From assembly GCF_964355755.1 (NCBI RefSeq), contig NC_092678.1, positions 13,116,922 to 13,180,921 of the forward strand: 64,000 bases of DNA, written 5' to 3'. The notes beneath the pieces were generated by a model, which was not told the origin of the DNA, ran no database searches, and saw only the letters and a program-made list of their open reading frames with translations. This document shows, one piece after another, positions 25,181 to 60,290 of the stretch (within the stretch, counting starts at the first letter, position 1; every line of letters starts with the position of its first letter). Source of the DNA: Antedon mediterranea. Taxonomy: Eukaryota; Echinodermata; Crinoidea; Comatulida; Antedonidae. The position numbers were made by a program, and so were the translations under genes.

Positions 25181-25625
25181 TCATAGCATTTTGAAAGTTC
25201 TCGGCCCACGTCTCTGTTTAAGGTTGGACTGGATTCTCTCTATATAATTAGCCTCCCGTATTTTCCTGGGAATTAATTTGTCCTCTCGACATAAAACCTT
25301 TACGTTGGATTTATCAAGTTCATGGCCTGTGGTTTTTAGATGTTCAGCAATGACAGACTGATTGGAGGGGGTTATTGCAAAATGTTCTTTGATGTGTTCC
25401 CTCAAAGTTCTCTTTGTTTCGCCTACGTACACTTTGTTACAGCCTTTACAAGGAAGACGATAAACTACTCCTGATTTGTCCTCAATGGATACTTTGTCCT
25501 TGGGTGCGACAAGAATTTGACGGAGTGTATGATGTGGTTTGAAGGCGGTGGGGGTGCCGTATTGTCCATAAACCCGTTTAAGTTGCTCGGATATACCTTT
25601 AAAAAAGGAATCACCACAGGAATTT
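25181..25625 (-). pseudogene. Penelope GIY-YIG endonuclease C-terminal domain
   Basis: The frame reads GVVYRLPCKGCNKVYVGETK, with a CxxC motif between the GIY-like VVY and the YIG-like YVG, then TLREHIKEH and a final RKIREANYIE segment. This matches the C-terminal endonuclease of Penelope-like retroelements. A one-base frameshift lies near 25,605. The region upstream (reverse transcriptase) is absent. Confidence 0.9.
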
Positions 25626-26311
25626 TTCTAGAACTAGATGTAGGAAGATCTGGATTTGAATTCGATTAATTTGATTACTTTATATTATTATCGATAGGGC
25701 CCTATCTAAGATGTTTATGTGAGACTGCCTATTAATTACCACGACGCAATCGCGGCGAATACCGCGTATTTTATAGTCATTGCGTACGATTATTGTTCAC
25801 ACGAAATTATGAATATGCGTCAAATATCGTTTATAGCTGTTTGTATGTCGTGTTTTACTATTACTTTTTCAACCTGGAACATCCGAAACTGCATATTTTC
25901 AAATATCAAACTAACAATTTCAACCATCTGATCACGTAAACAATGACCAAATTTGTGTTCAATGTTGTTTGTTCAAGAACATCTGAAATATTGAACTTAA
26001 CATATGTATCAGAATCCATGAATTCTCTTCCACAGCACATGTAATTTCTTCAACGTGCCATTATATTATTTTTAGTCGTTTCTTCTTACGCCAAACTGGA
26101 GTATCTGGTATAAATCACATAATCAACTTCTCCTACTGAGACTAAGACCAGCAATTCTTGCAAACAATAGTTTACTGGGAAGAAGCGACATAACCAAGAC
26201 GTCATTACCCGAACTAAAACCTATATTCTCTTCTTTTCTATTGAACATTTTCTTTATTTTAACTTGATCATTTACAATATTTCTGTTTGTCATCTCACGT
26301 GCACGATTTAA

Positions 26312-26509
26312 CTAATCACGAAATGCAGACACATAATCAAGTATTGATACAGACTCTTCTACATTCACTAACAGTCTTTCTTTAACCATTTTGAGAGTGC
26401 CTTGAACTGAATGACCATACAGCAACTCAAATGGCCTAAACCCCAATGAATCACGAACAATGAATAATATATATGGTTTTATTGGACAAAGATTGCATAT
26501 AGACCGCAT
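26312..26509 (-). pseudogene. Integrase C-terminal remnant (gypsy family)
   Basis: 65 codons containing RDSLGFRPFELLYGHSVQG, the conserved region after the integrase core. The DDE core itself is absent. The reading frame stops just beyond. Confidence 0.7.
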
Positions 26510-26744
26510 ATGATTGAAACAGGTGTGATAATTATTTCTCTAAACACCACCGTGCGTTCGTCTTCAACAAGTTTACACAAAACCGGTTCCAAAACATTCC
26601 CAAAATGTTGACATCCCAGACCGAAAGACTCGAAACGACAATGACATCAAAATCGCTACTGATAATATCCGCAAACAAACATGAAGTGATACTTTCTTAT
26701 AACTCCCTTTAACACCTTGAATAAGAATAAATCAACTTTCACTT

Positions 26745-27032
26745 TCATCCACTCCACTTGTTGCTTCTTTCAACATGACCGTAATTACCAACGTGGTTTG
26801 AAGCGATTTTATTATCTTCATTAGCAAACAACAAATTTACTACTACTACTTTTTTTACTTTGATTTTAAAATAATCTGATTTTGAAACCAGTTTGGTATC
26901 CACTACTCTGTACGTGAGTATATACTTATCGGTAACAGAAGCCGCTTTTGTTAAAATGTTCTGCTCCTCTAGATGAGTACGAACTTCGGTAAGGAAAACA
27001 CTATTTAAACTCACGAAGCTTTCCAAATTCAC
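26745..27032 (-). pseudogene. gag-like remnant (gypsy family)
   Basis: 95 codons containing FLTEVRTHLEEQ and a downstream Ala-Ala-Ser-Val-x-Asp-Lys-Tyr run, which resembles the SCAN-like C-terminal gag region of vertebrate-type gypsy elements. An adjacent frame (27029-27229) carries the preceding part out of phase. It is broken and has no zinc knuckle. Confidence 0.5.
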
Positions 27033-27281
27033 CGTTTACTCCTTCCGAACTGCGACATCAAAAAAGAATATGCTTCTACTTGCAACTTTTGTAAACGTTT
27101 GATCGTAATGTTTACCTCAGTTCCTAAATTTCTGCCGATACGTACAACATGTTCAGGCTGTATATCTTTAACTTGTATTATAAGCTTCATTATTCTAATT
27201 TCTTTATAGGATTGAACACACCACTTCAAGTATATCTAAAATAAAATAACGTATAAACTTCATGATCAATATTTATTTGAA

Positions 27282-27355
27282 GATCAGATACACATCGCTG
27301 CATGTAATATCTGAGTACAAATAAATCTACCTTAGAAATTAGCAATAACATAATA
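27282..27355 (+). pseudogene. Decayed ankyrin-repeat exon
   Basis: Aligns with the intact ANK exons downstream: ATCGCTGCATGTAATATCTG, then CAAATAAATCTACCTTAGAA. The intron motif GTATAAACTTCATGAT precedes it as in the real exons. Stops and indels break the frame and no donor remains. Confidence 0.75.
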
Positions 27356-28769
27356 ATGTCTGCAGTATATGCACGTCAGTTGGGAGTGAAAGAGCATATA
27401 TTTAAAAAAAAACAGAGAAAAACAGACTATAAATTGATTTTCTTTCTTGTTAAAAACAGGGACTGACACTACTGCTTCTATTTAGTGTAGGCTACGACGC
27501 ACTTAAGTGATCTTAATGGTCTCAATGCAATTGCCACACCAGAGTGGAGAACAATACTACTATGATAATATATACAGAGGCAACATCAGTAGATCATTTC
27601 ATAAATGTTCATTTGAGTGAATTGCTTCTAATAAAAAAACATTTACTGCCCTTGCATGTTGGCCTCATCATTGAAATCACACTTGTATGATTGTACTTAC
27701 ATGAATAGGCCTATGATCTGAATCACAAACATTTCTATTTCACTTTATTTTTGTGTCATCTATTATTAAATGATAGACCATACTGCAAACGAGTTTCGAT
27801 TAATGCAAGTTAAGTGCACTAACAAGAACAAATCTATCTATTTTGTATGGAAGGCTGCACTCAATTTTAAGTTTATCTGGAGATATTTAGCTTTTAAAAC
27901 GTATTCACGGAATTTTTACTATGTTTAAAATTAATTTAGTAATTAAATAGTATATAGTGTATGGTAATGATAGTTTATTATTATCGGTCTTATCATATCT
28001 TTATTACGTTTTACTAAGACAAGAAAGGCGTATCATTATTTTGGTCACATGATCGATGTAAACACGTCACCCGCGGAGCTACAAATTGGAAGGATGGTCA
28101 TTCCATATTAAATTTACGGCGAAATTATGTTTCTTTGTCTGTTTTTGACCCCATTTAAAAATTAAATGTTTTGGTGTGATGTTACTTACAAAAATGTCAT
28201 CCAAATAATCAATAAATAAGGACAAGAATGAATTATGACCGGAAGAACACGCCGCGGAATGTTCAAACGTTTCTATTCCAGTACGAATACTAATTTCAAT
28301 TACAACGTAACTATCTCATATTATTGCATCTTGCATAACACTCAACATCTCCTTACCACAATACTAATTTATGGTATATGGTACTGGTATTTGTTACGTT
28401 TAATAGTCCTTTTATAATACACTGGCTTCGAATGTTGATAATTTTATTTTATTTTACAAACAAATTTAAGTAAACTTACCAATTTGATGTTTACCACTTC
28501 GAGTGAATATTTTGAAAACATTCGAAAGCACATACATATGTGTCTTTGCTATACTAAAATAACTTCCCAGTTGGCTACATCATCATCGGAATCACTCCGG
28601 AAATAAGGGAATTCACAGAAAATTGATATTTTTCAGTCTACGTTCACAGCATAACACCAGCAAAACATTTCATTTCAATTTCTTTGAGTATTATTTATCA
28701 TTGCAAAACTAAAATGATTTGCTGCAATAACCTGTATGATTTAACTTCATGATTATAATTTCTTGATAG

Positions 28770-28874
28770 GACGGAAACACCCCGCTGCATGAATATATGC
28801 GTTCAAATGAACCTACCTTAGAATTAGTGAACTACCTCACGGAACAAGGTGCATCCGTATCAGCACTAAATAAG
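28770..28874 (+). CDS. ANK exon 1
   Basis: Bounded by TTGATAG and GTAATA, phase 0 at both ends. Encodes 35 residues starting DGNTPLHEYMRSNEPTLELV, a typical ANK helix-turn-helix (TPLHE in helix 1, LVNYL in helix 2). Preceded by about 780 bp of intron homologous to the intron before exon 6 (37.41-37.90 kb). Confidence 0.9.
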
Positions 28875-31800
28875 GTAATATGGGCTAGAGATAATTTATA
28901 TGATTACACCTAACGTACGTATGATCTGGGCCGGAAACAGATCTTATCCACTTTATTTTATTTATTTTGATTGAGTTATTTATACTTACTTGCTGCAATA
29001 AATATTTAGTAGTAATTAAAAAAGATCCTACAGTTATTGTGATATTGGTATATTGTTCAATGAAATTATTAATTTACCTATGTTTTATGTGGACATGTCA
29101 TTATAAAATGGTTGAATTTAGGATCATGACTGAAAGCAATATATAAACTACACGGGCGGTTATGATTTCTTTTATCACTAAAACTGCAAAATAATGGGAA
29201 TGCACATACAATTTATATAATTAATTCGGTCTACGTTCACAAAATATGCACCAGCAAAACCTTTTATTTTAACTTCTTTGTGTATTATTTATCATTACTT
29301 TACTATAATTATTTGCTGCAATACACTGTATGTATAAACTTCGTGATAATAATTTGTTCTCTATAGGACGGAAACAGCCCGTTGCATGAATACATGCGTT
29401 CAAATGAACCTGCCTTAGATGTAGTAAACTATCTCACGAAGCAAGGTGCATCAATAACAGCACTAAATAAGGTAATATAGGGCTACAGATAATTTATATG
29501 ACTAGATGGTACGCTCGCTTCGCTCGCGTACCATCTAGGTCGTGCCCACAGATGGTTCTCGAATACATAATAATTTCAGCGTTAAAAAACTGGCGATTTC
29601 AAATGTACGTACCGCAGGACAATAATACATGTCGTTTACAGGAACGAATAAATAGAGACTGTGATTTATGTACTGAACTAAAATTAGCACCCTGGGAATT
29701 ACTTCCGAAAGAAAAACTTGTCACAAAATGAGTCAAATTTAAACAAACTTAATTTGTGTTTTGTATGTAACATTAGGGTTGAGGGATGGGAAAGAGGATG
29801 GGTGCAAAGAGGAACAGTTGTTAAATATATTCTTTATCCATGTAGTAACGAAATATTAATTGTTTTCATGTTTTACAAATAATATACCACTAAACACAGT
29901 AAAACATTGTGATGTAATACTTTGTTGAAACTATCACCGTCCTAGTCGATTGAAATAGTATAGTACATGTAACGATACATCACTACGACGTTTATAATAT
30001 GTTTATATAATGTATAACAATTTGTGAAAACCACCCCTATTCGTGGCAAATCATAAATTCGACTTAATCGTCAATAAATATTAAATTATCTAACTCAACT
30101 TAATTAGTAGGCCTAATGGTTTTCAATTGTTTCTTAGAGTTAATTCATACTTAAGTTGGTTCCTAACCCTACCCACCAAAGTTGTTCTGCGTTTAGGGCA
30201 TGTGATGCACCGTAGGCCTATCTTCTACTGGCTTTACAACGCTACTCATGCCAGTGGGGGAAGGGTGATGATGTCACGTGGGTGGTTTAACTGCAATAAT
30301 AAAGATTTGTACATAATATACGGCGACTGAAAACGCTAGCTCACTATCCGTTAAAAAAAAATCTATATCCAACCTCTGCAGCACAGATTGAAAAAAAAAT
30401 GGATCGAATTTCTGTTATGAGTATACAGTACTTGCCTTTACGACGCCTGAGGGAATAGACACTTGTGGAACAGAGATTGGAATGTTCCATTCATTTCAAA
30501 TCAATACATTGGCATAAACGTATATTAAATCTATCAAAATAGTATTTTTTAAAGAAAATTGGCCTGTCTTCAACATTATGATACTGTACTCGAGCTGTTC
30601 AACCGATTTTCAGCTATTAAAAACAATTATCGTAGGAGGAGATAGGAAAATGCGAAGCCTCCTCGCATTTTTGTGGCGGGTATTTTTCAAGATGGACATC
30701 CATTAGACAGTGTATACCATGATCGGAAAACACCCCTATTTGAGGCAAATCGTTGAACCTAAATTCGTTTTAATCGTCAATAACTAATTATCTAACTTAA
30801 TTTAATTAGTTAACAGTGTTACATCAGGTGGTTAAAATCAGTACCGAAAGTACGAACCAACTTTATATACCATCGAGTAAAAATTCTAAAAGTAAGGCGC
30901 GATTTACCGAATTTAACCCTTACGTAAATTTATATATAGATTACACCTATAACGTACGTATGATCTGCAACGCACAAACATCTTATCCACTTTATTTTAT
31001 ATCATATTACAATTGATTGAGTTATTTAGAATTACATACTGCAATAATTATTTAGTAGTAATTAAACAATAGTATACAGTAAAGCTTGGTTCCCACTAGA
31101 ACGTAACGCAAGGACGTAAACGCAACGCAAGCGTTTTAACCAATGATAAGCGAAGTTATAGACAGTTAGCATTCACAAGCGAATAAGCCATCGCTTGTGA
31201 TGGCTTATTCGCTTGTGAATGGTCAATTCACTTGCGTTGCGTTACGTCCTTGCGTTGCGTCGCTAGTGGGAACCACGCTTTATTGTGAAATTGGTATATT
31301 TTGCAATGAAAGTATTAATTGAACTATGTTTTATGTGGACATGATTGAATTTAGAATCATGACTGAAAGCAATGTTCACGTTAACCTGTATGTAAACTAC
31401 ACAATTATTTTTTTTTTATCAGTAATATTGCTAAATAGTAAACAATTGATTCAATTCCGTCTACGTTCACAGCATATGCACCAGCAAAACCTTTATTTCA
31501 ACTTCTTTGTGTATTCTTTATCTATAACTATAATTATTTGTTTCAATAACATTTAAGTATACATTGATTGAGTTATTTAAAATTACTTGCTGCAATAATT
31601 ATTTAGTAAATTAAACAATATTATACGGCTTTACCACGTTGAAACACCGGTTCTCGTCAGATCACCGAAGTTAAGCGACGTTGGGCCTGTTTAGTGCTTG
31701 GATGGGATACAATCTGGGAATATCGGGTGCTGTATATTTAGCTGGGGCCCATCAAGCATTTAAAATCAGCATTGCTGACAATTATGGCAGCCGCTGAATC

Positions 31801-34800
31801 TAGTATTTGCCTTTCTTCTGGTGAAGGTGGCCACAGGACGAGAGAAGCCCTTGATCAATGTTAGGCCCCATCAAAGTGCTTTAAACAGTCCTGGCTTTGT
31901 TAGTATCAAACATGTTAGTGGCGGTAATTATCGGTGTTGGTTTCGATTGAATAAAATGAAATAAAAATAAAATAAAAATACAGTTATTGTGAAGTTGGTA
32001 TATTTTGCAATGAAATTATTAATTTACCTACGTTTTCTGTGGACATGTCATTAAAAAAGGGTTGAATTTAAAAGCATGACTGAAAGCAATGTTTACATTA
32101 ACCTGTTGTATAAACTTAACCATTATGATTTTTTCCATTAATCATTGTAAACGAGAATCCACAGACAATCGATACAATTGAGTCTACGTTCACAGCATAA
32201 TATGCACCAGCAAACCATTTTATTTAAAATTGTTGTTGATTATTTATCATTACTTAAATATAATTATTTGCTGCAATGATATGTTTGTTGTATAAACATC
32301 TTGATTATACATTTTTTTTATAGGACGGAAACAACCTACTGCATGAATACATGCGTTCTAATAAACCTACCTTAAAAATAGTGAAATATTTCACGAAGCA
32401 AGGTGCAACAGTATCAGCACCAAATAAGGTAACTTATAAGCACATGGTATTTTTCAAAAGGTAATCGAGAAGAACTGAAACGTGTTCAGAAAGAGAACTG
32501 AAGCTTGTTATAAGTTAATACAAACGAAAAATTGAAAATAATGTTGTCAGTAATGACATGAAAAAGGTTTGGACAGGAATGCGGATAAAAATTGGTTATA
32601 AAGGATCGAATATGAAGAATAAAAACTATAAATTTGATAACATCAATAGGTTATGCAAATAGATTTGGCAATATTGATTTAAAAAAAAAACAAGATTAGC
32701 TATTAGTTAGCTCGTAGGATTTTGATATTTTGAATTTGACCTATTCTAATAGGTCAACTTCATAATCAAATATTTCCTGTTCATTAGTTAAAACTAATGA
32801 ACAAGACGTCTTTGAATTATTCCGAAAGTTAAAACATTCCAAGGCACCAACCCCTGATAGTATACAATCCAAGGTACTTAAAGCATGTTGTTTTCAAATA
32901 TCCTGGTGTATTTACAGTCATTTTTAATACAAGAACATTTTTTTTTAATTGTGTTTCTTAACCAATTTTATATTTTAATACGTCCTTGTAAAACAATCAT
33001 TTCATCAGACTTTTTCTGGCTTTTGTAAATATTTTATATATTAGATTAAAAAAAATAAATATGATGAAAATAACACAGATCAATTAAAATATATTGACTT
33101 TACTTCTTTTTAAATGACCATCACCTCTCTTAAGCGACCACTACCCCTTTATTTAATATAGTGACCACCACTTTTAAAGAACCACCACCTCTTGTAAGCG
33201 TCCATCACTTTTAAAGGATCACCACACGTAAGAAAGATGGTTTCTTACGATATATGTGTCACATTATAGTTTAAAGGACATTGGAAACCATAATCAATTT
33301 GCATTGCAACTTATGATTTAATTAGGATTTGCTTGTTAATTAAGATTGTTGATGCATGTTGTTTTTTTATATCGGGAGTCCTTATTGAAACAAGCTCTAG
33401 AGCTTATAGAGTTATCATCTTGCTCTCATCCTGCAATTTTATTATATGTTTTTGTAATACAGTATTGATATAAAACAAACAGACGTTCTGTCATTCTTTA
33501 TAATTGTATGAGTAAAAAGTATGAGTATTCCTGTATCTGAAGTGTTTTGTAAACACAATATGTCTTATAATATTCATGTTGCATCTGCCACAAAACAACA
33601 ACAATCAATCATGTTATCAGTTGTGTCTAACAAAAAGAATAAGAATCCTAATTATCCTTATTATTAAAACTTCATCAGTTTGGCATTAATGGTACTTTAT
33701 TCTCATGGTTTAAAAGTTATCTTGGCGGTAGGTTGCAGAGAGTAGTAATTGATGGTGCCACATCCAATTCTCTCCCAGTCATCTCAGGCGTGCCTCAAGG
33801 TTCCATTCTTGCCTCCCTGCTGTTCAATATATTTGTAAATGAAATACCAAATCTCTTTCAAAATTCCTACTGTCTTATGTTCGCTGAAGACCTCAAGATT
33901 TACAAAATTATTACCACCACTGAGGACTCCGTTGCACTTCAGGCAGATCTGGAAAGACTCAGTACGTGGGTTTCCGAATGGAAAATGTCCCTGAAGTCCG
34001 AGAAATGCAAAGTCCTGTCTTGCTCTCTTAAGAAAAACCTATTAGTTTCGCTTACTCTGTTCAAGAAGAAGTCATTGAAAGTGTAAACTCTTATCGGGAC
34101 CTCAGCATTTTCATCGACCGTAAACTGACATTTATTTCACACGTTGATCATGTTGTCAGAAAGGCCAAAAGGCTGCTTGGGCTGATGTGGCGCAATTGCA
34201 AACATTTCTCTCCATACACCAAACGTGCACTTTATCTTTATCTTTCCCTCATCCAACCATCTTTCAATTTCTATTCAATTATTTACAACTCACTCTCTGT
34301 TTCTCAAGCCTCCAGAATAGATCGGACCCATAACAAGTTTTTGCGCTTTGTCGGCCCAGGAGCCAACCTGCCTCCTATTGTTTCCCCGACATCTAGGAGA
34401 GCAAGACAGGATTTGCAATTCCTGTATAAATTTCTTACTTCTAAGTTTTATTGTAATCTTGTTTCGTTTTTAGTCGGGTGAAAGCGACTCTATAGTTCAC
34501 TATGTCGGTCGGTCGGTCGGTCTGTCGGTCTGTCGGTCTGTCTGTCGGTCCGGTATCACTATGCGTTTTATCGCTTTCTGACCTTATCTTGATATCAATT
34601 TAATCTAGCTAAGTTAATTTTTCACAGTATATTCCTTATGGCCAGGAATCGATGTGGTTATGTTTTCATGGTGCGCAATAAAAAATTACGCGGTCTACGC
34701 ACGATTTAACGAAATTATGTTTGTAATCATATCTTCACAACCATGAATCACAATTAAATAGAATTTGGTACTAAAAAATTTCAGGGCATAAATCATCATA

Positions 34801-37800
34801 TGGCAATACAATTACGTGCGTAGCGCATGTAACGCATGCGTACGCGCGCATAAAATTTTCAAAATTTATTTTCGATGAAATAAGAGTACGTTTCAGGCAA
34901 TTTGAAGCGTTTACAAAATTGCCATGAGTCACAAAGCCACAAAGTTACGCGCGCACGCGCATTTAAAATTTTAAAAAGCGCAAAATTCATTTTTAATCAA
35001 CTTTCTACGCGTTTCTTGTCATTTTGAGCATGTCAAAAATTCCCATACGCGCGCAAATTTTTACACGCGTGATGCGCACGTAGCGTTAAATACATACTTT
35101 TTTCGCGTGATTTATGTTTTTGCAGCCTTTTCTAATAATTTTACCATCTTTTAAACTATTTCGACTTAAAATTACGTCATACGATCACGTCGAATAGAGA
35201 GAAATGGCGAACCGCGATGACGTCACTCAAATTTCACCGAGTGGGTATAGATTGTAAACAAACCATTTCGCCACATGTTTTTGTATGGGAAATTCCGATG
35301 GGTTGAGTTAAAAAGGTAGTTAGAAAAGAACGTTTAAAACACACATAAAAGCAGTATCTTTTTTTTTGCAACACCCTTAACAATTTTAATGTTATATGGG
35401 CAAATCTTAACATATTTTATTTCAATTTGGATTGAATTAAGACGCGTTTTTTTTGTTATATACTGTACCCAGCTCTAGGCCCTAGATAGTTTCGCTGATG
35501 CTGTGTAGTACCCTCGAGTAGGCCTACTCGAGCGAGCCTAGCACGGATTATCGGTTATTATAATAATAATAATAATATTGGAAATTCTTTATTGCATACT
35601 GTACTACTACTACTTTAGCTAGGGTGCTGCTAGGCCTCTCCTAGCTAGGTAGTAAGACTAAATAGAGCATCTCTAGTAGACGTAGGCCTAGCATTTAGTT
35701 TCAGCTTGACAACTGCCATTTTGTTATGTGGCTAGTGATGCTTCCTGCAGGGGGGCTACCGCCAGTAATGAATACTTGATAACACTATTCTACTATAATA
35801 CTATAGGCCTAGTCTAATGTAGACCTACATATATGAGATATTTTTAGGAATATGATTGTGAATGATGGATGACTAAATACACAAATAGAAAAGAATTATG
35901 AGCGTTACAGCAACAACATTGGTTAGACGACGCCATGATTCACGTGTATAAACATAGGAAATGTGCCGCCATCAACGGTTTGTTATGATTTTATACCCAC
36001 TCGGATTTTAGACGTCGGTTCGCCATTTCTCTCTATTGGATAATTTGCGTACGTTTTTGATGAAAAAGTTAAAAAATTCGTCAAAATTATGCCTTTTTAG
36101 TCGCGTGGACGCGACTATAGTTCACTATGTCGGTCGGTCTGTCTGTCGGTCTGTCTGTCGGTCTGTCTGTCGGTCCGGTATCATTATGCATTGTAGCACG
36201 CAACTTAATGGCTGTTGGTCTTGTTTTATTTTAATGTTCCTTTGTAATCTTCGTAGTAAACCCCTTTTTTCATGTTAAATTTTCTCGTGTCAATGTTTGT
36301 AAATATGGTATTTTCTGTAGACTCTCGTCTTTGTACAATTCATGTTTTAAAAAAAAATTATTCTTTAGATATTTTTAACTGGAATTTCTCTCAATTTAAA
36401 TGTATTATTAATGAAATTATTTAAATAATCTTATTTACATTTTTGTATATATTTATATTGGCTTATATTTATAGTTTAGTTATTTTATTTTCAACCTGTT
36501 ATTGGTGTTTTACACTGTTGGCTTGAAATAAAGAATTAAATTTGAATTATATTTCATGTGTATGATTTATTCACAGAATGGATACACACCGATAAATATT
36601 TATCTGGATCGTGGTGATGTTAAATTAGAGATATTGTACTGTCTGATAACCAATGGTGAATCACCCACATTACCAAAAAAGGTAATTTGACAAAAATGTA
36701 AATTTCAATAGTATATCATACTGATGCTTAATGATAATTATTATGTTTTTCTTCGTTTTTTACTTCCAAACGTAAGAAGGTATTATACTACTGTATATGT
36801 TAATTATTATAAACATGATGCAACTTCTCTTGGTATAAATAATACATTTTAGCGACTTTCGATTAATTTGATTTAAAAATATTTATTTATTAAAAATATA
36901 ACATTTTTTTTTTTTTAGGAAGGAAGCAATGCTCTACATATACATCTAAGTGGTAGATATGTTAAACCTACGTTAGAAATAGTGACTAATCTCATTAAAC
37001 TTGGTGTATCTCCAACATTACCGAATAAGGTAAAGTACATAAGAGTGGTCATATATTCCCGTGATCTAACATTGTATAATTATCGGATGGGACTCAAACA
37101 CACCCCAGATCACTAGTGTTGTGTTCATAACTCTATACCTGCATCAGAGTGGTTACAGCAAGCAAATACAGTTGGACACCTCTAACGTTTGTGGTACCGA
37201 GATTAAATCTCTAAATATGAAATGAAAATATATATTTTTTTAATTATCCGCATCGTTTGTTTAATTTAATTTTTTATTGTATAAAATAAGTACGTATGAT
37301 TTATAATGAACTTGAGAGAAAAGTGCCATACGTAAGTAAAGTAGTAAAGTCGAAACCTAATGCTAACAGCCTTGGTGCCCATCTCTATTTCTTTAGCGTT
37401 TTGGCCAGGCTTATCGGGCTTATCACATCTTTATTACGTTTTACTAAGGCAAGAAAGGCGTATCATTATTTTGGTCACGTGAACGATATAAACACGTCAC
37501 ACGCGGAGCTACAAATTAGAATTCGGGGAGATGTCCTATCAATCATCATTCAATATTACTGCGAAATTATGTTTGTTTTTCTGCCTTTGACCCCATTTAA
37601 ACATTTAACTTGTTGGTGTGATGTTAATTACAACAATGTCATCCAAATAATCAATAAGGATACGAATGAATTATGACTGGAAAAACACGCCGCGGAATTT
37701 TCTAAACGTTTCTATTCCAGTACGAATACTACTTTTAATTACAACCTAACTATCTCATATTGCATCATGCATAACACTCAACATCTCCTTACCACAATAC

Positions 37801-40800
37801 TAATTTTCGAATAGATTCCAATATATTCATGGAATGAGCTACTGTTATTTTTTAAGTTTAATAATAAATTTCGTCATAATAATTTTTTTTCTCTATATAG
37901 GACGGAAACACCCCGCTGCATGAATACATGCGTTCAACAAATAAACCTACCTTAGAAGTGGTAAACTATCTCAGGAAACAAGGTGCTTCAATAACAGCAC
38001 AAAATAAGGTAATAGAATTAAGCTTGGTTCCCACTAGAACGTAACGCAAGGACGTAAACGCAACGCAAGCGTTTTAACCAATGACAAGCGAAGTTATAGA
38101 CAGTTAGCAATCACAAGCGAATAAGCCATCGCTTGTGATTCACTTGCGTTGCGTTACGTCCTTGCGTTGGGTCGCTAGTGGGAACCACGCTTTACGCATA
38201 TAACGTACGTATGATCTGCACCGCAAATATATCTTATCCACTTTATTTTGTATCATATTACCATTGATTGAGTTATTTAGAATTACTTGCTGCAATACTA
38301 TCTATATTATCTTATTTTAGGAACAAATGTAAGTAATTTTACCAATTCGATGTTTACCACTTCGAGTGAACATTTTGAAAACATTCAAAACACATACATA
38401 TGTGTCTTGGCTATACTAAAATAGCTTCCCAGTTGGCTACATCATAATCGGAGTTACCCTGGAACCATCAACTTCAACCAACAAACACATAAAAAGTTTA
38501 ATTACTAAAGATGGGAGCTTAGCAACGAGCCCAATTGATATTTTAAAGGAACAAATACAACATTTCGAAGGTTTATACGCAAAATTCTATTATAAACAAG
38601 CTTTCAGAAATAGAAAAAGAAAATTGTGAAGGTTACGTCACTATTGATGAATGTAAAAAGGCCATTTCAATGATGGAAAAAAATAAAACACCTGGATCGG
38701 ATGATCTAAGTGTTGAATTTTATGTGTTCTTTTGGAATAATATTAAACATTTAATTTGCGATGCGTTAAATGAAAGTTATAATTCTCAAGAATTATCCTT
38801 TTCGCAAAAACGAGGTGTAATCACCCTTTTGTTCAAGGATGGAGAAAGAGAAAATTTGAATAATTGGCGTCCCATTACCCTCTTAAACACCGATTACAAA
38901 ATTCTTGCACATGTATTAAGTAACAGACTTAAAATGGTTATTAAATCAATAGTAAGTTCAGACCAAAAAGGTTATATAAAAGGCCGTTTCGCTGGTGAAA
39001 ACATTCGGTTAATAGAAGACCTGCTTTATTATACAGAGTGTAATGATATCGAAGGGGCAATAATTACCGTAGATTTTAAGAAGGCTTTTGACTATATTAG
39101 TAGAGATTTTATGTTCAATGTTCTATAAACGTTTAACTTTGGAATGTTCTTTTGTAACTGGGTAAAAGTATTATACAATAACGTTGAATGGGTCACAGTT
39201 AACAATGGTTGGGTTTCAAACAATTTTAAAATGGAAAGAGGTATTAGACAAGGTTGTCCTCTATCTGCTCTGTTATTCATTTTAGTGGTTGAAGTAATGG
39301 CATCTAGAATAAGAAACAGAGATGACTATAAGGGTATTAAACTTCCAAATAATGAAAATAACATAGAATAAGCCAATTAGCCGATGATACTGTTTTGTAT
39401 GTTGGTAATGACAAAAGTATTAAGTCAGCAGTCAGTGTAATTGAACGTTTTTGTGAAGTATCTGGAATGACACTAAATAAAAAAAAAACCAATGTTTTTT
39501 GGATTGGTAAATGGAAGAACAGAATAGATAGACCTTTAGAATTAAATTGGGTAAAACACCCGATCAAAATTTAAGGCATATATGTAGGGTATAATACAGA
39601 AGAATGTACCAGAAAAAAACTGGGATGTTAAATTAATAGAGCTAGAAAAGACTTTAAAACAATGGAATGCTAGAAATCTCTCAATTTTTGGTAGAATAAT
39701 AATCCTGAAAAGTCTTGCACTATCTAAATTAACATATGCTGCAAATATCACTGATGTTCCAAAATATGTATATACACAAGTTACAAATCTAATATATAAT
39801 TTTATTTGGAACAATAAAAGGGAAAAGATAAAAAGAAAAACTATAATTGGTGATGTTGAGATGGGAAGCATTAAAATGCCTGATTTTACTCTTCATGTTA
39901 ACGCACTCATGTGTGGCTGGTTAAAAAGAATTATGAATGATAATGGTGCTAAATGGAAAAATATTCCAATGTATTATATTAAAAAAATATGTGATGTTAA
40001 TGTTTTACTTAATATGTCATGTTATAACATTATTGATGTTAATTCTGATAAAATTCCACTGTTTTACAAAAATATGATAAAAGCCTACATATTATAACAG
40101 AATCTCAAAAAAAAAACTTGAAACTTATAACGATATAATGAATGAGCAACTGTGGGGAAACCACTACGTTAAACTAAAAAAAAAATCGCTTTTCTACAAG
40201 CATTGGATTGACAGTGGCATTATCAGTATTAAAGACATTGTTAATAAGAAAACTTTTTTAACATCAAACGAAATACTGGTGAAACTACAATGTAAAACAA
40301 ACTGGTTAGTGTGCAAATACAAATGAGTATTTGTGCATTATTAAGGCAATACCAATTCAATGGAAACGTATTATTAAGGAGGTAGATATTTTCAATTGTG
40401 ATGATAATGATGAATTAGTTGGGACCAAGTATGAGATTAATACTACCAAACTAATATACTCATGGTTTGTGAAAGAATATTTCATTATTCCAATGTCACA
40501 ACTCAAATGGGAAGAGTACTTCAATGATAACAACATTGATTGGAAAACCTCTTAGTTACGGAAAGTATGTAAAATGAAAGATAAGAAACTAGCACAATTC
40601 AATTATAAGATGTTACATAGAATACTGCCTACCAACAAACGGCTGTATCAGTGGAAAGTTAAGGAAACACAAACGTGTGACAAATGTGGAGAAATTGAAA
40701 ATGAAAATCATTTGTTTTTTAGTTGTAGATTTATTCAGAAATATTGGAGGAAAATGCTTAGTATCTTTGTAAGTTTAAATCACAATAATATATCATTTAA

Positions 40801-43800
40801 ACAATTAATACTAGGAACGGGAGATAAGCTAATAGATTATATTTACACTTTTGCAGCATTTTCTATTTATAGAATAAAAATGTTATCTGCACTAAATAAG
40901 CCAGTGGGTAAATCTTTATGGAATTCATTTAAAAGCAATATGTTATATAACATTGAATGTGAAACATATAACAATAAAGAAACAAGTATAGAAAAATGGG
41001 TAGCTTTAAGAAATAAGATTATGATAATATAATTTCTAATTTGATACGATTAACCGAAAAAGAATTACAGTGATACGGGTTACTGTTGGTACTGAGCTAT
41101 TATTGTTTTTTTTTATCATGTATATAAATATATTGTATAATCCGGGTTGTAAAATGAAAACAAACAAATGAAAATGTGTGAACTATTTTAAAACGGGATA
41201 GATGATAATGATGATCCTGTCAAGTGTATAACAAAATATAAGAAAATTTATGAAAAAAGGAGTAATACAGAATTCATATATGTAAAAATGTTACTTATGA
41301 ACTGTAACGACATTTACAAGTTAAATAATACGATTTTATGTAATATGAGATAATATGAATGTGAATAAAAGTGGTGTTTGCGCCACAAAAGAGAAAAAAA
41401 AAAACTTCAAACAATATGTTCTAACCAAATTTAAAAAACCGCACAAATACACAATTGACGCGTATGCTTATAATGTGGGCTGAAATTGTTTAGTACGCAA
41501 ATTACGTAGATATTTGATATACTTTTATGTTTATAGGAAGGAAAAACAGCAGTATCTGTTTTAGAAGAAAATGCGCAGATAGAACAAACAGAAAAACACA
41601 TGATTTTAGAATATTTTGACAGTAAGTTAAAAATACCATATCAAACTAAATTAAAGTATATTTAAATTTAAAGTTTTACATACAACCATGAATTTGTAAA
41701 CCTAAATGATACATGTATGTTATGCGTTTTTTTAATTATTTATAATTAGAACTGCTAGTTCCTCCAGAAATATTTGCCATGGGTAAAGAGGCTATTAAGA
41801 TATATAAAGATGAATTGAAAGATGGTAAAATTGCAGTTGTGAATTCAAGATGTATGTTTCTTGGAAAGGAAGGTGCTGGCAAGACAAGCTGCGTAAAGTC
41901 CATGCTTAGAGAGAGGTAAACAAAATACAAATTACACAAATTAACATCTTACCCTACTGAAAGAAAACGAAATAAAATAAAATATAAAACATATTAGGCT
42001 AATATTTTTAATCAATTATTTCAATGTAAATATATACGTGTATTATGTTTACTAATGGTTATAATATACAGATTTTTTTTATTTTTTTTTAATTGTGTAT
42101 TTGTATCAACTAGTTTGATAATTTAAATTCGTGTTGGATGTAATGGATAAAAGTATTTTGTTTTAACGTCAACGTACATGTTTACAATAGATTCAACCCC
42201 AATGAACCATCGACGGATGGTATAGTTACAGCCACCGTGTTTAAAGCAACTGGAGAGAGTAAATGGAAGAAGATTAAAGAGGAAAACGGTAAAGATAATG
42301 TGATTACTCAAACTCTAAATGTTTGTCTTACGTTATCATCATTATTTATATTTCTTTAAAATTGATAACATCTGTATCTGGAATTTTGGAATTGTTTAAA
42401 AGACATCACACGGTAATAGGCATACAGGTTAAAATTAATTCCTTTCTCATAAACTCCTAACAATAACTTTTTATGCGATACCGTATTAATTCTTTGCCAA
42501 TTTGTTTATTTGTACAGATACTGAGCTAACCAAGAAAATTCGTAAAAATGCATTAGTGAAGAGAGTTGACAACGAGTTAAAACAGGGTATGTACAAAAAA
42601 AATAATTGAACCTTGTTTAACACTTGAATGCATCATTCACCTTTCATTTATAAATGATGATAAACGAGACTGTAGATTCGATATTGTGGAATAAAACAAT
42701 ACCCTAGACGATAGTATAAAAATGCTGAAATTCAACAGTTTTATTTACGATCACCATGAGATAAAAAATTACATGATTAATATCAATTTAAAATATTAAA
42801 AACATTAAACATTAGACATTAAAAAGTTACAAATAAAAAGTACCGGCAATAGTAAATTATAGGATAGGATTTAAATAAAAAATGACATAATATAAAGAGG
42901 GTAAAATAGATTTACAATAATGATGGGTAATGCTTCTATTGTATCGCTCGAAAATATGATTTCATTATTTTTACAGCTGCAATATGTTCTCTCGATTTCG
43001 TTTTGTCGACATTATATTTTTTTCTCAACATCATTTCATTTCATGTTATTTTCGTGACCTTAAAAAAAAATAATTATTTGTAATATAAGTTTGAAATATA
43101 AGACTTCTCTCGAATAATTTCTTTTTATTTTATTAACATTTGAAAAAAAAACAAGCATCCGTGAAAACCCCGGACAGCAGATTAAATTATTTTTTTGTGT
43201 TTTTGTTTTATCCTGTAATAGAAATCAGTGAAAACCGAAGCTCCTTGAAAAAAATTAAAGATTTTGTAAGAAGTAAAATAGGAAAAGATGATTCAGAGAG
43301 CATTCCAAATGAAATAACTAGCATATGGGACTACGCTGGTCAATTGGACTACTTCATAACACACAGGGTATGCTTATCAATATGTCAATTATTAAAATAA
43401 GTAGCATACTAACGTGTGTAAACAGGATGTACATTGCATTTGACATTATCCTTAACATCAGATAGGCGTAATGTCGATATTACTGTTACCAAAATTGTAT
43501 ATCCATACCAGCCTATTTTCTGCCGTAACGTAACCATTCCATTCAATATGATTAATAATTCTTCATTATTATACTATATCGTGGTCAACACAAGCTTAAT
43601 GACAAACACATGTAAATGTTATGAAATCTTTGACTATGTAAAAATGCTATTATATACATATTAGGTTACGTAAATATTGCTGTAAATATTTTTCAAAACG
43701 TAGTTTGCTTTGTCTTAACTGCAATGAAACGATTATAATATGTACCATTTTAACATTAATCAGTTTACATATACTCGTCTCAGAATACAATATTTCCGAT

Positions 43801-46279
43801 AGCATTGCGTCGACAAATGATATGATATAGTCAAATATACATATAAATTCAACGCCAAAAATATGCGAAAGATGTTCAGAAGGAACTTTAAAGCAGAAAA
43901 TAATGAAAATTCTCGTATTCATAATTATTACATTTCAGATATATTCTAATTGTCGTTTTGGCGATTGAAGCATTCTCCGTCATAATCGATCCTCATAGTT
44001 GCCAAAAATATCATAGACCACCATGCACCTACCATAAACAAGATCTTAGTAACAAGGCCATATACATGGCTGCAGTCGCGTGCTCAAGTTAGTGTTTACC
44101 GACCAACCGACATATACCCCTTTTACACCACCAAGCTTATAACAAACCCGTGTTGTGTCTGCATACATTTCCTTTTCACACCTGATTCATAAAACGGGGA
44201 TGACACGGGTTGCGTGTATTTACGCTGCAAAATACCAACCCATGTAAATGTTCTAGATCAATCGAAATATCTCCCTCTCACGCATGAAGAGACGCCATAG
44301 TAACGGTTTGCTGATAATACCTCCCACAATTTTGTTTTATGGCAATACACACACAAATTACGTCTACTCGGGAAGAATAATATCTTGAAATAAAAATGAA
44401 TAACAAATAACAATAAGTTTTAATTATTAAATAAGCGAATAAACAAAATCAATCTTATCCTAATTTTATTTAAATTAGATACTATAGTGGGCGAGGATAG
44501 TAAACAAACGAGTAAAGATACGCTGAGCGTTTTACACCGCAAACACAGGTTCATCCTGGGTGCGTCTCCCGGGTTGACTTGAGGGAGAATGCTCCAACCG
44601 CCCCAAAATGAGATTCCAAAAATCATTATATCCTACATGAATTGTCTGTGTTTTGTTCAGTTTTTCCTCACAAATACAGTATCGTACTGCGTTGCGTTTA
44701 GTGCGTTGGATAAATTAGACGAACAAGCTAAAATACGAGATCCAGCATTGGTAAGTTTACTAAGTTAGATTATGCTATTATATTAAAATGTAATATTAAT
44801 AGTTTAATAATAATGTACGTTGGCTATGTTATACAATAATAGTATAATATCCTTTTAAATCCATTTTACATTTAAATTTAGGGTCCGTTAGGATTGACTA
44901 ATTTGGACATAATTCTGTTCTGGGTAAGGTCAGTATATGAACATACTGTGGCACAATATGCTTCAGGAAACACCATTTCAATTGATGGCAAAGTGATAAA
45001 ATCGCCTCCCATCAGTTTGGTTGCTACTCATATAGACAAATTGCCAGGGAGAAGAACATCAGAAAAGCTGAAAGAGGTAATAGCCACAATAAAATAGACA
45101 GATAGAAATATAAATAGATATTGATTATTTCTGTCTACTAGATTATAACAGTGTTTTAATGAAGTAGCAGTATGTAAATACATAATTAATATACAGGTAC
45201 TATAAAGAGCAATGGTCCTAACGTTGAGTATTACAACATGCATAAATATTATACTATAATATAAAAACAAAATTCCTGCTGGCTTTTTTTTGGGAGAAAA
45301 ACAAAGTGTATACATTTGTGAGTCGTTAAAAATCATCAATACATACTGTTATACGTTTGATTAACGGTTTCACAAGACAATTGAAATATTAGGCAAACAT
45401 CTATCACATCAATAAAAATAATAATACCATAAAAAAAGTGTAAGTAAGTAATGATTAGTGCCGGGATTAGTGCTTCAACAAACACAAAAGTGTATAATGA
45501 TATTATGATAAGAAAATTATAGGTGTTTAAATGAATGGTTTGTGTTGCAGGCTATGTACTAAATTGGACAGCCAACTGTTTATCGACATGTTTTTAGACT
45601 TATAGCTTGAATAGTGTGTGTCCGCAAATATATCTTTCTCACAAAGTGTTTCAATTCAATTGTAGTATTGAACCGTATTTACTGTATTATGTAAATATTC
45701 AACCAAACGGTTACATTGGGTTTTTTCAGTATTGACACGACCGTGGTTGTAGGCATAGTATGTATAGACATAGGACATCTCACGTAATATCAGTTATTTA
45801 GCTTCGTATCATCTGGACCGCTATGCAGTGCATGTAGGCTTACATACGATTTCTCATTTAAAAATATTAATCCACTGAAACATTGAACATTGAATTTTGA
45901 ATTGACAGACTTTAGCAGTAGGTATGGTTGGCAACATTAAACACACACTGCAATATATTACAGTTAAAAGGTATTCATTTTTTATAAACGTAAACTGTAA
46001 CAATATAAATACAGGTACTGTTATTATTTGAAGGTTCAGAATATGTATCAGACCATTTTTGCTAAAATGGAAAGAATGGAATATGCCGAGCATGTAGATC
46101 GTGAAATGTACATGGTCAACAACACGGTGAAATCACACGAAGGTATTGAGAAACTTAAGAGAAACGTTGTGAAATACATGGATGTAATAGGGACGAAGGT
46201 AATTCCTCTAAAGTGGCTTGATTTTCAGGAAAGATTGCAACAAATTGGAAAAACAAGACTGTGCATTACATTTAATGAG
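28770..46279 (+). CDS. Ankyrin-Roc-COR protein gene, 14 exons, both ends missing
   Basis: Exons: 28770-28874, 29367-29471, 32324-32428, 36577-36681, 36919-37029, 37901-38008, 41537-41621, 41750-41915, 42191-42288, 42518-42586, 43222-43367, 44661-44750, 44882-45076, 46034-46279. They join without a stop to 1734 nt (578 codons). Six ANK repeats come first (residues 1-213), then a linker, a Roc GTPase domain with P-loop, DYAGQ and THID motifs, and the start of a COR domain. Roc-COR proteins are cytoplasmic, dimerising GTPases; ANK repeats bind proteins. All ANK exons are phase 0-0, so gain or loss keeps the frame. No initiator, upstream domain, COR end, kinase or death domain was found, so it may be incomplete here or a truncated gene. 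The introns are crowded with transposons. Confidence 0.88.
29367..29471 (+). CDS. ANK exon 2
   Basis: Bounded by CTATAG and GTAATA, phase 0-0, 35 residues starting DGNSPLHEYMRSNEPALDVV. Its downstream intron holds a Helitron 30 bp after the donor. Confidence 0.9.
29502..30940 (-). mobile_element. Non-autonomous Helitron, copy A
   Basis: Read on the minus strand it starts TCTATATATAAATTTACG and ends with a hairpin (GATGGTACGC/GCGTACCATC) and CTAG. The host bases are A before and T after. The same intron in the preceding unit (28,875-28,925) and at 60,291-60,345 lacks the insert and reads ATATGATTACACC. No Rep/helicase frame; a 77-codon frame at 29498-29731 shows no family motif. Confidence 0.95.
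31083..31279. mobile_element. Harbinger-like MITE, copy 1
   Basis: TIR AGCTTGGTTCCCACTAG, inverted at the right end, with CGTAACGCAAGGACGTAA-type subterminal sequence. Right flank TTA; left flank TAA where the empty paralogue has TTA, so one base has changed since a 3-bp duplication. The centre is a long hairpin (TTCACAAGCGAATAAGCCAT). Confidence 0.85.
31540..31580 (+). other. Junction where an ANK unit lost its exon
   Basis: Sequence that normally lies upstream of an ANK exon (CAATAACATTTAAGTATAC) is joined directly to sequence that normally lies downstream of one (ATTGATTGAGTTATTT). The exon and its splice sites are absent while both intron halves remain. Confidence 0.7.
31622..31980 (+). 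mobile_element. 5S-rRNA-derived SINE (SINE3 type)
   Basis: 31622-31740 is a recognisable 5S rRNA copy: ACCACGTTGAAACACCGGTT, GATCACCGAAGTTAAGCGAC and the box C region CTTGGATGGGATAC. A body of about 240 bp follows, ending GTGTTGGTTTCGATTGAATA and an AAATA-type tail. That tail is shared with the LINE fragment at 13176-13569. Internal 5S promoter boxes would allow RNA polymerase III transcription. It sits in the intron between ANK exons 2 and 3. Confidence 0.93.
32324..32428 (+). CDS. ANK exon 3
   Basis: Bounded by TTATAG and GTAACT, phase 0-0, 35 residues starting DGNNLLHEYMRSNKPTLKIV. The usual TPLH is NLLH, and the tail ends SAPNK instead of SALNK. Confidence 0.88.
32445..32960 (+). pseudogene. 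LINE ORF2 fragment before the reverse-transcriptase core
   Basis: Broken frames include REELKRVQKEL, NDMKKVWTGMR and, at 32,805-32,900, FELFRKLKHSKAPTPDSIQS, which corresponds to the KAPGPDGI motif at the start of LINE reverse transcriptases. Several stops and frameshifts. It may belong to the same insertion as the fragment at 33.65 kb, but the region between is unrecognised. Confidence 0.65.
33110..33230. repeat. Degenerate TTAAGCGACCACC-type repeats
   Basis: Irregular copies of CTTAAGCGACCACTACCCC and CTTGTAAGCGTCCATCAC. Related-looking sequence occurs at 51,260-51,360 and 51,510-51,560. Confidence 0.45.
33650..34464 (+). pseudogene. LINE reverse transcriptase, mutated active site and frameshift
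   Basis: Frames read QFGINGTLFSWFKSYLGGRL, then SGVPQGSILASLLFNIFVNE, then MFAEDLKIYK. The catalytic FADD is changed to FAED. A frameshift at about 34,080 separates this from a C-terminal part (34,090-34,460) with RKAKRLLGLMWRNCKHFSPY and a THNKFLRF motif. Inactive. It sits in the intron before ANK exon 4, and probably ends with the AATAAA-containing 3' region at 36,227-36,545. Confidence 0.88.
34465..36219 (+). mobile_element. Dispersed repeat with direct GTCGGTCTGTCGG ends, copy 1
   Basis: Starts TTTTTAGTCG, then a CTATAGTTCACTATGTCGG block and GTCGGTC tracts, then a body with GCGTACGCGCGC-type motifs. A second copy of the start block (36,091-36,185) forms the end, so the ends are direct repeats. 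Homologous to 62,215-63,066; copy 1 differs by an 839-bp insertion. Class unknown. Confidence 0.75.
35196..36034. mobile_element. AGAGAG-TIR element copy B (ISL2EU-like), AT duplication in AATT target
   Basis: TIR AGAGAGAAATGGCGAACCG and its inverse. AT flanks at 35194-35195 and 36035-36036. The homologous repeat at 62.93 kb shows the empty site CGTCGAATTGG, which fixes the duplication as exactly AT. Confidence 0.9.
36227..36545 (+). other. Probable LINE 3' end, separated by a later insertion
   Basis: AT-rich sequence ending GGCTTGAAATAAAGAATTAA, a polyadenylation-type end, directly before the intron homology preceding exon 4. It may continue the LINE at 33.65-34.46 kb across the inserted repeat. 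Confidence 0.5.
36577..36681 (+). CDS. ANK exon 4
   Basis: Bounded by TTCACAG and GTAATT, phase 0-0, 35 residues starting NGYTPINIYLDRGDVKLEIL. More diverged than exons 1-3 and 6, with TPIN in place of TPLH. Confidence 0.85.
36919..37029 (+). CDS. ANK exon 5
   Basis: Preceded by a T-run and TAG, followed by GTAAAG, phase 0-0, 37 residues starting EGSNALHIHLSGRYVKPTLE. A decayed paralogue with matching intron lies at 59,142-59,245. Confidence 0.88.
37901..38008 (+). CDS. ANK exon 6
   Basis: Bounded by CTATATAG and GTAATA, phase 0-0, 36 residues starting DGNTPLHEYMRSTNKPTLEV, one residue longer than its relatives. The next intron carries a Harbinger-like MITE and a Tx1/L1-like LINE. Confidence 0.9.
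38021..38191. mobile_element. Harbinger-like MITE, copy 2
   Basis: Same TIR (AGCTTGGTTCCCACTAG) and subterminal sequence as copy 1, shortened in the central hairpin. Perfect TTA on both sides (38018-38020, 38192-38194). Confidence 0.88.
38478..41402 (+). mobile_element. Tx1/L1-like LINE, 5'-truncated
   Basis: AACTTCAA flanks both ends (38470-38477, 41403-41410). Carries most of ORF2 from just before the reverse transcriptase, a 3' untranslated region and a poly-A tail. It lies in the intron between ANK exon 6 and the linker exon, in the gene's orientation. The fragment at 10773-11257 is a shorter copy of the same subfamily. Confidence 0.92.
38670..41032 (+). pseudogene. Tx1/L1-like ORF2 protein, frameshifted
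   Basis: Pieces in order: NKTPGSDDLSVEFYVFFW, SQKRGVITLLFKDG, NNWRPITLLNTDYKILA, KGRFAGENIRLIEDL, VDFKKAFDYISRDF (motif A), RGIRQGCPLSALLFILVVEV (motif B), then ADDTVLYVGND in another frame near 39,383-39,415 (motif C, intact). The C-terminal zinc knuckle CDKCGEIENENHLFFSC is at about 40,675-40,730. At least four frameshifts or stops (about 39,128, 39,371, 39,570, 40,097-40,140, 40,555) inactivate it. Confidence 0.92.
41537..41621 (+). CDS. Linker exon between ANK and Roc
   Basis: Bounded by TTATAG and GTAAGT; 85 nt, phase 0 in and 1 out. Starts EGKTAVSVLEENAQIEQTEK, the degenerate first half of an ANK repeat, which caps the array. Confidence 0.85.
41750..41915 (+). CDS. Roc exon 1 with P-loop
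   Basis: Bounded by ATTAG and GTAAAC, phase 1 in, 2 out. Contains SRCMFLGKEGAGKTSCVKSM, a full GxxxxGKT/S nucleotide-binding P-loop preceded by a hydrophobic strand. Confidence 0.93.
42191..42288 (+). CDS. Roc exon 2
   Basis: Bounded by ACAATAG and GTAAAG, phase 2 in, 1 out. Encodes NPNEPSTDGIVTATVF; the STDGI segment is the usual Roc switch I region. Confidence 0.9.
42518..42586 (+). CDS. Roc exon 3 (insert region)
   Basis: Bounded by TGTACAG and GTATGT, phase 1 in, 1 out. A basic helical stretch containing TKKIRKNALVKRVDNELKQ. No motif; included because phases match and splice sites are good. Confidence 0.78.
42600..43220. other. Intron, no feature recognised
   Basis: AT-rich intron between Roc exons 3 and 4. 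A frame starting at 43,140 runs into exon 4 but lacks coding character before the TAG acceptor. Confidence 0.5.
43222..43367 (+). CDS. Roc exon 4 with DxxGQ
   Basis: Bounded by AATAG and GTATGC, phase 1 in, 0 out. Ends with TSIWDYAGQLDYFITHR; DYAGQ is the G3 motif that contacts the gamma phosphate and Mg2+. Confidence 0.93.
43368..44660. other. Intron, no gene recognised
   Basis: Intron between Roc exons 4 and 5. Around 44,150-44,580 the sequence is less AT-rich and carries possible MITE-like stretches (ACCCGTGTTGTGTCTG, CGTCTCCCGGGTTGACTTGA), but no clear TIR was found. Confidence 0.4.
44661..44750 (+). CDS. Roc exon 5
   Basis: Bounded by TTGTTCAG and GTAAGT, phase 0-0, 30 residues starting FFLTNTVSYCVAFSALDKLD, the strand after G3 that in Roc domains usually reads FLT...YLVVF. 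A downstream AG (ATACAG) would give stops, so this acceptor was chosen. Confidence 0.85.
44882..45076 (+). CDS. Roc exon 6 with THID
   Basis: Bounded by AATTTAG and GTAATA, phase 0-0, 65 residues. Contains ILFWVRSVYEHTV and SLVATHIDKL; THID is the G4 guanine-specificity motif. Confidence 0.92.
45077..46033. other. Intron before the COR exon, nothing recognised
   Basis: AT-rich; short frames on both strands show no family signature. Confidence 0.5.
46034..46279 (+). CDS. COR domain, first exon
   Basis: Acceptor TTTGAAG and donor GTAAAT, phase 0-0, 82 residues. Contains VIPLKWLDFQERLQ, the early COR signature (a proline then a W and F/E pair), followed by an acidic donor-proximal end. An upstream AG (ACAG at 46,015) gives a stop and was rejected. 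The rest of COR was not found in the window. Confidence 0.82.
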
Positions 46280-59141: not shown

Positions 59142-59245
59142 TAAATGTTCTACATGTACATCTAAGTGGAATATATGTTGAACCTACGTTAGAAATAGTG
59201 ACTAATCTCATTAGACTTGGTGTATCTCCAACATTACAAACTAAG
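59142..59245 (+). pseudogene. Decayed paralogue of ANK exon 5
   Basis: From TACATGTACATCTAAGTGG the frame reads LHVHLSGIYVEPTLEIVTNL and ends at a proper donor (AAG/GTAATG). The first ~15 bases of the exon and the AG acceptor are missing. The following intron matches that after exon 5. Confidence 0.85.
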
Positions 59246-60185: not shown

Positions 60186-60290
60186 GACGGAAACACCCCA
60201 CTACATGAATACATGCGTTCAAATAAACCTACATTAGAAATATTGAAATATCTCACGAAACATGGTGCATCAGTAACAGCACTAAATAAG
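60186..60290 (+). CDS. Intact ANK exon of the second array
   Basis: Bounded by TTTATAG and GTAATA, phase 0-0, 35 residues starting DGNTPLHEYMRSNKPTLEIL. Fully open and close to exons 1 and 3. No Roc or COR exon follows in the window, so it belongs to a partial array or to a gene continuing beyond 64 kb. Confidence 0.8.

Follow-up and report, generated by a model that had tools for sequence, protein, structure and literature searches.

An ankyrin-Roc-COR gene of Antedon mediterranea, probably truncated at its 3' end, belongs to a large family with ankyrin repeats on separate in-phase exons

The closest systems described so far are the LRR-ROCO genes of brown algae, in which each LRR is encoded by one 72-bp phase-2 exon and the exons are shuffled (Teng et al. 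2024, PMC11378527; these genes are also the subject of Zambounis et al. 2012, as cited in PMC11378527 and PMC4104024). According to the available parts of these sources, the concave-face residues of the algal repeats are under positive selection and the proteins are proposed immune receptors; in Ectocarpus, unit exons also occur in noncoding regions (PMC11378527) and the LRR-ROCO loci are mostly clustered (PMC4104024), and in N. decipiens the LRR-ROCO genes are dispersed (PMC11378527). In fungi, NLRs are reported to carry high-identity ANK, TPR or WD repeats in variable number, with positive selection mostly at concave contact positions and with concerted evolution suggested (Dyrka et al. 2014, PMC4986451). 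Among animals, Trichoplax possesses expanded ROCO genes, some of them with CARD or death domains, as far as the available text describes them (Civiero et al. 2014, PMC4104024).

The locus analysed here, from Antedon mediterranea, resembles the brown-algal genes in belonging to an expanded Roc-COR family, in carrying one repeat per exon of fixed length and phase, and in the shuffling of its units, but the repeats are ankyrin (ANK) repeats on phase-0 exons of 105-111 bp instead of LRRs on 72-bp phase-2 exons. Four paralogs in the present family end in a DED-like exon, of which the available text of PMC11378527 makes no mention for brown-algal LRR-ROCO. The family thus works like brown-algal LRR-ROCO and is not a member of it, since repeat type and exon phase differ. 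With fungal ANK-NLRs it shares highly identical ANK repeats, a variable repeat number and, in some arrays, apparent selection at contact positions, whereas the switch is Roc instead of NACHT/NB-ARC and the one-exon-per-repeat layout found here is not described for fungal NLRs in the available text of PMC4986451. Human DAPK1 and LRRK1 likewise unite ANK repeats and Roc-COR in one protein. Both carry a kinase domain, while the gene described below is known only from its first ANK exon onward, and DAPK1 ends in a death domain where paralogs of this gene end in the DED-like exon. The human ROCO set comprises four genes (PMC11378527), in contrast to the tandem unit-exon clusters seen here. As in Trichoplax, ROCO genes have expanded in an animal, but the partners listed for Trichoplax in the available text of PMC4104024 are LRR, TPR and others, with ankyrin unmentioned, and that text describes no exon-unit arrays in an animal. 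A literature search, limited to the top-listed results and covering few subscription journals, did not turn up an animal ROCO family whose ANK repeats sit in unit-exon arrays. What we rate as new is that unit-exon ANK arrays occur together with the expansion of a Roc-COR family and, in some arrays, with contact codons that appear to outrun the introns.

The window, that is the whole stretch of 64,000 nucleotides analysed (C9:13116922-13180921, in a searched genome of 354 Mb and 18 contigs), contains the following features of the gene and of its surroundings, copy 2 being a close relative located downstream.

28770..28874, + strand: ANK unit exon 1, type D, phase 0-0 (splice model, HMM scan; identical in copy 2)
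29367..29471, + strand: ANK unit exon 2, type D, phase 0-0 (splice model, HMM scan; identical in copy 2)
32324..32428, + strand: ANK unit exon 3, type D, phase 0-0 (splice model, HMM scan, intron match)
36577..36681, + strand: ANK unit exon 4, distinct NGYTP type, phase 0-0 (splice model, HMM scan, tree)
36919..37029, + strand: ANK unit exon 5, distinct EGSN type, phase 0-0 (splice model, HMM scan, tree)
37901..38008, + strand: ANK unit exon 6, type D, phase 0-0 (splice model, HMM scan; identical in copy 2)
about 38482..41403, + strand: non-LTR retrotransposon remnant in an ANK-Roc intron (broken ORFs; gap in the copy-2 alignment)
41537..41621, + strand: linker exon, phase 0-1, from ANK array to Roc (splice model)
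41750..41915, + strand: Roc exon with P-loop GKEGAGKT (splice model, Pfam, genome search)
42191..42288, + strand: Roc exon (splice model; paralogs)
42518..42586, + strand: Roc exon (splice model)
43222..43367, + strand: Roc exon with DYAGQ, G3 (splice model, paralogs, 3dpu alignment)
44661..44750, + strand: Roc exon (splice model)
44882..45076, + strand: Roc exon with THID, G4 (splice model, paralogs)
46034..46279, + strand: end of Roc and first COR-A exon, ending in phase 0 (splice model, paralogs, exon search)
59144..59245, + strand: decayed exon-5-type unit (86% identity to 36928-37197; frame open, donor kept)
60186..60290, + strand: further type D ANK unit exon (HMM scan), probably from the array of the next copy, in its upstream part

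The first-pass annotation had proposed six ANK exons of 105-111 bp, all phase 0-0 and ending in AAG/GTAA. All six bear this out: their lengths are, in order, 105, 105, 105, 105, 111 and 108 bp, each has an AG acceptor, phase 0-0 and the AAG|gtaa end, and together with the eight Roc and early COR exons they join into one open frame with a 578-aa product. The joined protein matches Pfam Ank at 80 bits and Roc at 38.5 bits, both above the curated cut-offs (27 for Roc), and its Roc exons carry GKEGAGKT, DYAGQ and THID (G1, G3 and G4), the motifs expected of a ROCO Roc domain and earlier said to look functional, in an open frame. Among solved structures, this Roc domain matches the bacterial Roc-COR proteins 3dpu (E 9e-7) and 4wnr (E 1.2e-6) and resembles LRRK2 weakly (best E 0.005). 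The expectation that the ANK exons lead directly into Roc-COR holds for Roc, which joins in frame; as for COR, the first COR-A exon alone was seen and the joined protein has no Pfam COR match. The same Pfam scan gave no NACHT or NB-ARC match at E up to 1. The 5' end of the gene was not found.

An iterated HMM scan of the window and 18 C9 stretches, in which phase 0 and AG/GT were required by construction, yielded 70 unit exons above 50 bits, all on the + strand, while in a control, these sequences shuffled once by mononucleotide, a single match exceeded 5 bits, at 8.7. In a splice-blind check based on 67 of 94 matches (weaker or off-cluster rows were dropped), 56 of the 59 matches in the scanned stretches coincided with phase-0 AG/GT unit exons; the other three had no acceptor AG, and one of them also contained a stop. 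The shuffle control and the splice-blind agreement together indicate that the unit exons do not arise by chance.

The window also holds other features. A 5S rRNA-like sequence (31621-31738, Rfam 86.8 bits) lies in an intron of the gene, and integrase-like ORFs recognised by eye are found on the minus strand at 49828-50480, beyond the last Roc-COR exon, where they probably mark an LTR-type element. Self-similar repeat arrays of short offset occur at 1-1602 (about 75 bp), 2100-3133 and 18534-21149.

Genome searches indicate that the window gene is the 5' part of a member of a large ANK-Roc-COR family. Indeed, with a C4 P-loop exon as query, 86 matches were retrieved, 48 of which, at E 1.6e-17 or better, are spread over C3, C4, C8, C9 and C11. 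We sampled 16 of these 48 for upstream units with a phase-0 scan (11 on C9, five elsewhere), in line with the suggestion that ANK exons be sought next to Roc exons, and found unit exons on the same strand and 5' of Roc in every case. On C9, the nearest unit lies within 6 kb of the P-loop exon in 10 of the 11 genes and at 21.5 kb in the remaining one (B4), for which most of the gap was left unread. Between 2 and 14 units were seen in each C9 gene; as reading was confined to stretches, these counts are minimum values. The five stretches outside C9 (L022-L026; C3 twice, C4, C8 and C11) all have upstream phase-0 unit exons, each stretch with its own sequence type. Sampled family members therefore bear their ankyrin repeats on separate symmetric phase 0-0 exons.

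The 3' part of the family gene is seen in the paralogs. When the later exons of the C9 paralog L020 are joined, COR-A scores 47.8 bits, above its cut-off, and COR-B 18.6 bits, under the cut-off of 27. The gene at C8:17.604 Mb is a further member with COR exons. In four paralogs (two on C9, one on C3 and one on C8) the COR exons are followed by an exon matching Pfam DED at 30.7, 30.3, 17.4 and 16.1 bits, all below the cut-off of 35.9. A bona fide DED assignment was discarded, as a profile of the four exons compared with solved structures was unconvincing (best DED entry E 0.59), and we call this exon DED-like only on account of these two results. Likewise, the matches of a Pfam Roc genome search were left out of the family counts, since many of them appear to be other small GTPases. 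Clusters of long open frames with Pfam Roc matches, many of about 950-990 aa, are present at C11:4.57-4.65 Mb and 17.54-17.60 Mb and possibly represent another, intron-poor Roc family.

Copy 2 lies about 58.6 kb downstream of the window gene and is 97.5% identical to it over the first 7 kb; later blocks are 95-98% identical, and aligned blocks reach window position 48891. Some 18.6 kb located between two alignable blocks (9087-27694) is nearly absent from copy 2. The retrotransposon remnant, which copy 2 lacks, was either inserted after the duplication or lost from that copy. Exon 46034-46279 is the last Roc-COR exon of the family found in the window copy: queries with the later COR-A, COR-B and DED-like exons had no match in the window, while control loci were matched, and they found nothing in the 10 kb past the last exon of copy 2 either. 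Among the matches listed by a genome search, in which 136 of 399 candidates were scored and the weakest matches fell outside the listing, COR exons appear at C9:13233633-13235210, a position 13.7 kb past the final Roc-COR exon of copy 2, and the interval from the window gene to copy 2 has none. We assign these COR exons to copy 2 by position. Since such exons were not found for the window copy, yet lie downstream of copy 2, the former is probably a 3'-truncated duplicate or relative of its neighbour, and with no later 3' exons found and its divergence from copy 2 it may be a pseudogene or encode a shortened ANK-Roc protein.

The more severe version of this outcome, in which the window gene is an untranslated pseudogene fragment in a duplicated, transposon-rich region, falls just short of an even chance. 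It is consistent with the failure to find the remaining COR-A, COR-B and DED-like exons, with the retrotransposon inside the gene and with the changes separating the two copies, 14 of which are nonsynonymous and one synonymous, about as without constraint (some 12 of 15 would be expected to be nonsynonymous by site numbers without selection). Moreover, exon divergence (0.87%) is not significantly lower than the noncoding divergence of 1.45% calculated from alignable blocks of >=93% identity only (p 0.06). Against it, the frame is open in all 14 exons of both copies, which differ in length by a single in-frame 3 bp.

The exon-plus-intron units of the family are copied in tandem and occasionally decay. 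In the window, the flanking introns of units 1, 2, 3, 6 and 60186 are homologous to one another, mostly at 77-93% identity, with one flanking intron common to units 1 and 2 (83%). Unit 4 has no intron match of this kind within the window, and in the window the intron of unit 5 matches only the decayed copy at 59144, which has no recognisable start or acceptor. The earlier view that the surrounding introns are homologous is consequently valid for four of the six units. A relic near 31280-31621 corresponds to both intron flanks of a unit, with no exon between them. Elsewhere, a 1.8-kb block is repeated at 95% in L001 and an NGYTP plus EGSN exon pair is present in three copies of about 91-92% identity in L002, both being higher-order repeats. 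On C4, exon and intron repeat together in tandem with a period of about 307 bp in L031 and L032 (10 and 7 units found) and about 327 bp in L033 (12 units), with self-matches of about 92-97% in these arrays, and on C11 the L034 array repeats with a period of about 525 bp. The window introns and these tandem repeats substantiate the proposal that whole exon-plus-intron units were duplicated. That symmetric units can be gained or lost was also anticipated and agrees with the differing unit numbers of the C9 genes; the regular tandem repeats of the other arrays lend support to this mechanism. In a tree of 67 C9 units, in which 12 of 58 inner branches are starred, the three unit types separate and clustering by gene is slight (43 changes, compared with 46.6 on average after shuffling; 11 of 200 shuffles gave a value this low).

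Whether selection acts on the binding surface was assessed at contact columns which we take to be the DARPin positions and which were chosen after the alignments had been seen. For the 52 type D units of C9, pooled omega is 0.48 and contact omega 0.36, below 1 at p 6e-4 (codon model, exon tree only), and the EYMRSN stretch is almost invariant, with 50-51 of 52 units agreeing at each position. These observations give no sign of diversification in the window's subfamily, and diversifying selection there was rejected. The dN/dS comparison called for by the first-pass annotation thus speaks for conserved predicted contacts in window-type exons. The idea that the binding surface could vary between copies is not supported for these C9 units and finds support in some arrays of C4 (16.757 and 19.327 Mb) and C11 (20.646 Mb), and the same is true of the comparison with the concave-face selection described in brown algae in the available part of PMC11378527.

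The array L033 (C4:16756700-16760999) comprises twelve ANK exons that appear to evolve faster than their own introns. Mean divergence of its whole introns is 3.0%, while pN and pS are 0.43 and 0.13 at contact columns and 0.055 and 0.032 at framework columns. For 20 C11 units, the corresponding values are 0.349 and 0.130 at contact columns and 0.082 and 0.106 in the framework. The C4 arrays L031 and L032 show little variation anywhere and no contact excess beyond a few changes. With ungapped columns, contact omega is estimated at 32 (intron tree) or 64 (exon tree) for L033, 27 or 14 for L033 and L039 together, and 8.1 or 3.7 for ten C11 units, the C11 fit being confined to L034 and L025 and to three contact columns; contact omega exceeds 1 in these C4 and C11 fits with p from 5e-3 to 1e-50. 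When the gapped loop columns are included, the values become 34 and 4.8, 22 and 8.3, and 10 and 2.9, respectively. All these fits use one tree per array, although the units probably recombine, and the exon-tree fit of L033 is ill-determined (scale 0.08, framework omega 8). Framework omega relative to introns is also above 1 (2.4, 1.1 and 2.8 for L033, L033 with L039 and C11), so homogenisation of or constraint on the introns is possible and contact omega would then be inflated. For all C11 units, exon divergence (0.136) is only slightly higher than that of the flanks (0.122 and 0.116), and for L035 by itself the exons fall below the flanks (0.118 versus 0.171 and 0.156). Taken with these qualifications, the contrast is between predicted contacts that appear conserved on C9 and apparently diversified in some C4 and C11 arrays.

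No Roc was found within the 10 kb read downstream of L033, and its tie to a ROCO gene comes from its similarity to L039, with which it has a common unit type. In L039, about 5.8 kb separates the nearest intact unit from a Roc P-loop exon that follows it downstream in the same orientation, and the joined exons of this gene score 55 bits for Roc and 38.6 bits for COR-A. L038/L039 (C4:19317500-19331399, minus strand) represents a second, diverged Roc-COR gene type with ANK unit repeats of about 330 bp upstream. In L034 and L025, the nearest units precede C11 P-loop exons by about 2 kb.

An ANK repeat on its own exon is ordinary and known from ordinary ankyrins, and the arrays could accordingly reflect this common structure together with neutral unequal exchange and have no recognition role, a reading that also agrees with the conserved contacts of C9 and with the two C4 arrays devoid of a marked contact excess. 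We consider it unlikely, because neutral exchange does not cluster replacements at contact positions, whereas contact pN amounts to about 14 times the intron divergence in L033 and about three times in C11, and the fitted contact omega is significantly above 1. Still less probable is a partial duplication in frame, with exon 46034-46279 spliced to unit 60186 to give a double ANK-Roc/ANK-Roc-COR protein, which is formally possible since the former has a phase-0 end and the latter, itself a phase-0 unit, is the next intact exon of the family encountered on the + strand, but which would have to span a gap of about 14 kb with the integrase-like ORFs on the opposite strand.

Our preferred reading, which we hold to be slightly better than an even call as a whole, is that the window gene is a truncated copy within a family of ANK-Roc-COR recognition switches subject to unit exchange and, on C4 and C11, to diversification of the contacts. 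From what is known of ROCO and ankyrin proteins, intact members would act as intracellular recognition switches in which the ANK array binds a ligand, Roc and COR form a GTP-dependent switch and dimer, and a DED-like domain at the C terminus passes on the signal, which may lead to cell death or inflammation. Array length would change by unequal exchange at homologous introns with the frame left unbroken, and selection would diversify the predicted contact residues in some arrays (C4, C11). In the C9 cluster, where the predicted contact residues are held constant, diversity would chiefly reflect how many units of a few types are present and in what order. By analogy, we read the family as candidate recognition receptors, an animal counterpart of brown-algal LRR-ROCO and fungal ANK-NLRs. 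More tentatively, and at a likelihood that we place well below even, an animal may have evolved, independently of brown algae, recognition receptors on a ROCO switch with tandem symmetric ANK exon cassettes set in near-identical introns. Cassettes would be expanded or lost and, under strong selection, altered at their binding residues, so that receptor repertoires would differ between individuals; these repertoires could grow further if in-phase units were alternatively spliced.

If this reading is correct, animals and brown algae would have converged on a Roc-COR switch equipped with a repeat array of interchangeable exons. The way in which invertebrates diversify intracellular recognition could then be tested directly by comparing array length and contact codons across individuals, and L033, with exons that seem to outrun their own introns, would offer a sharp natural experiment in repeat diversification. 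While ROCO proteins are best known from Parkinson's disease (LRRK2), a role in recognition would be suggested for one branch of them.
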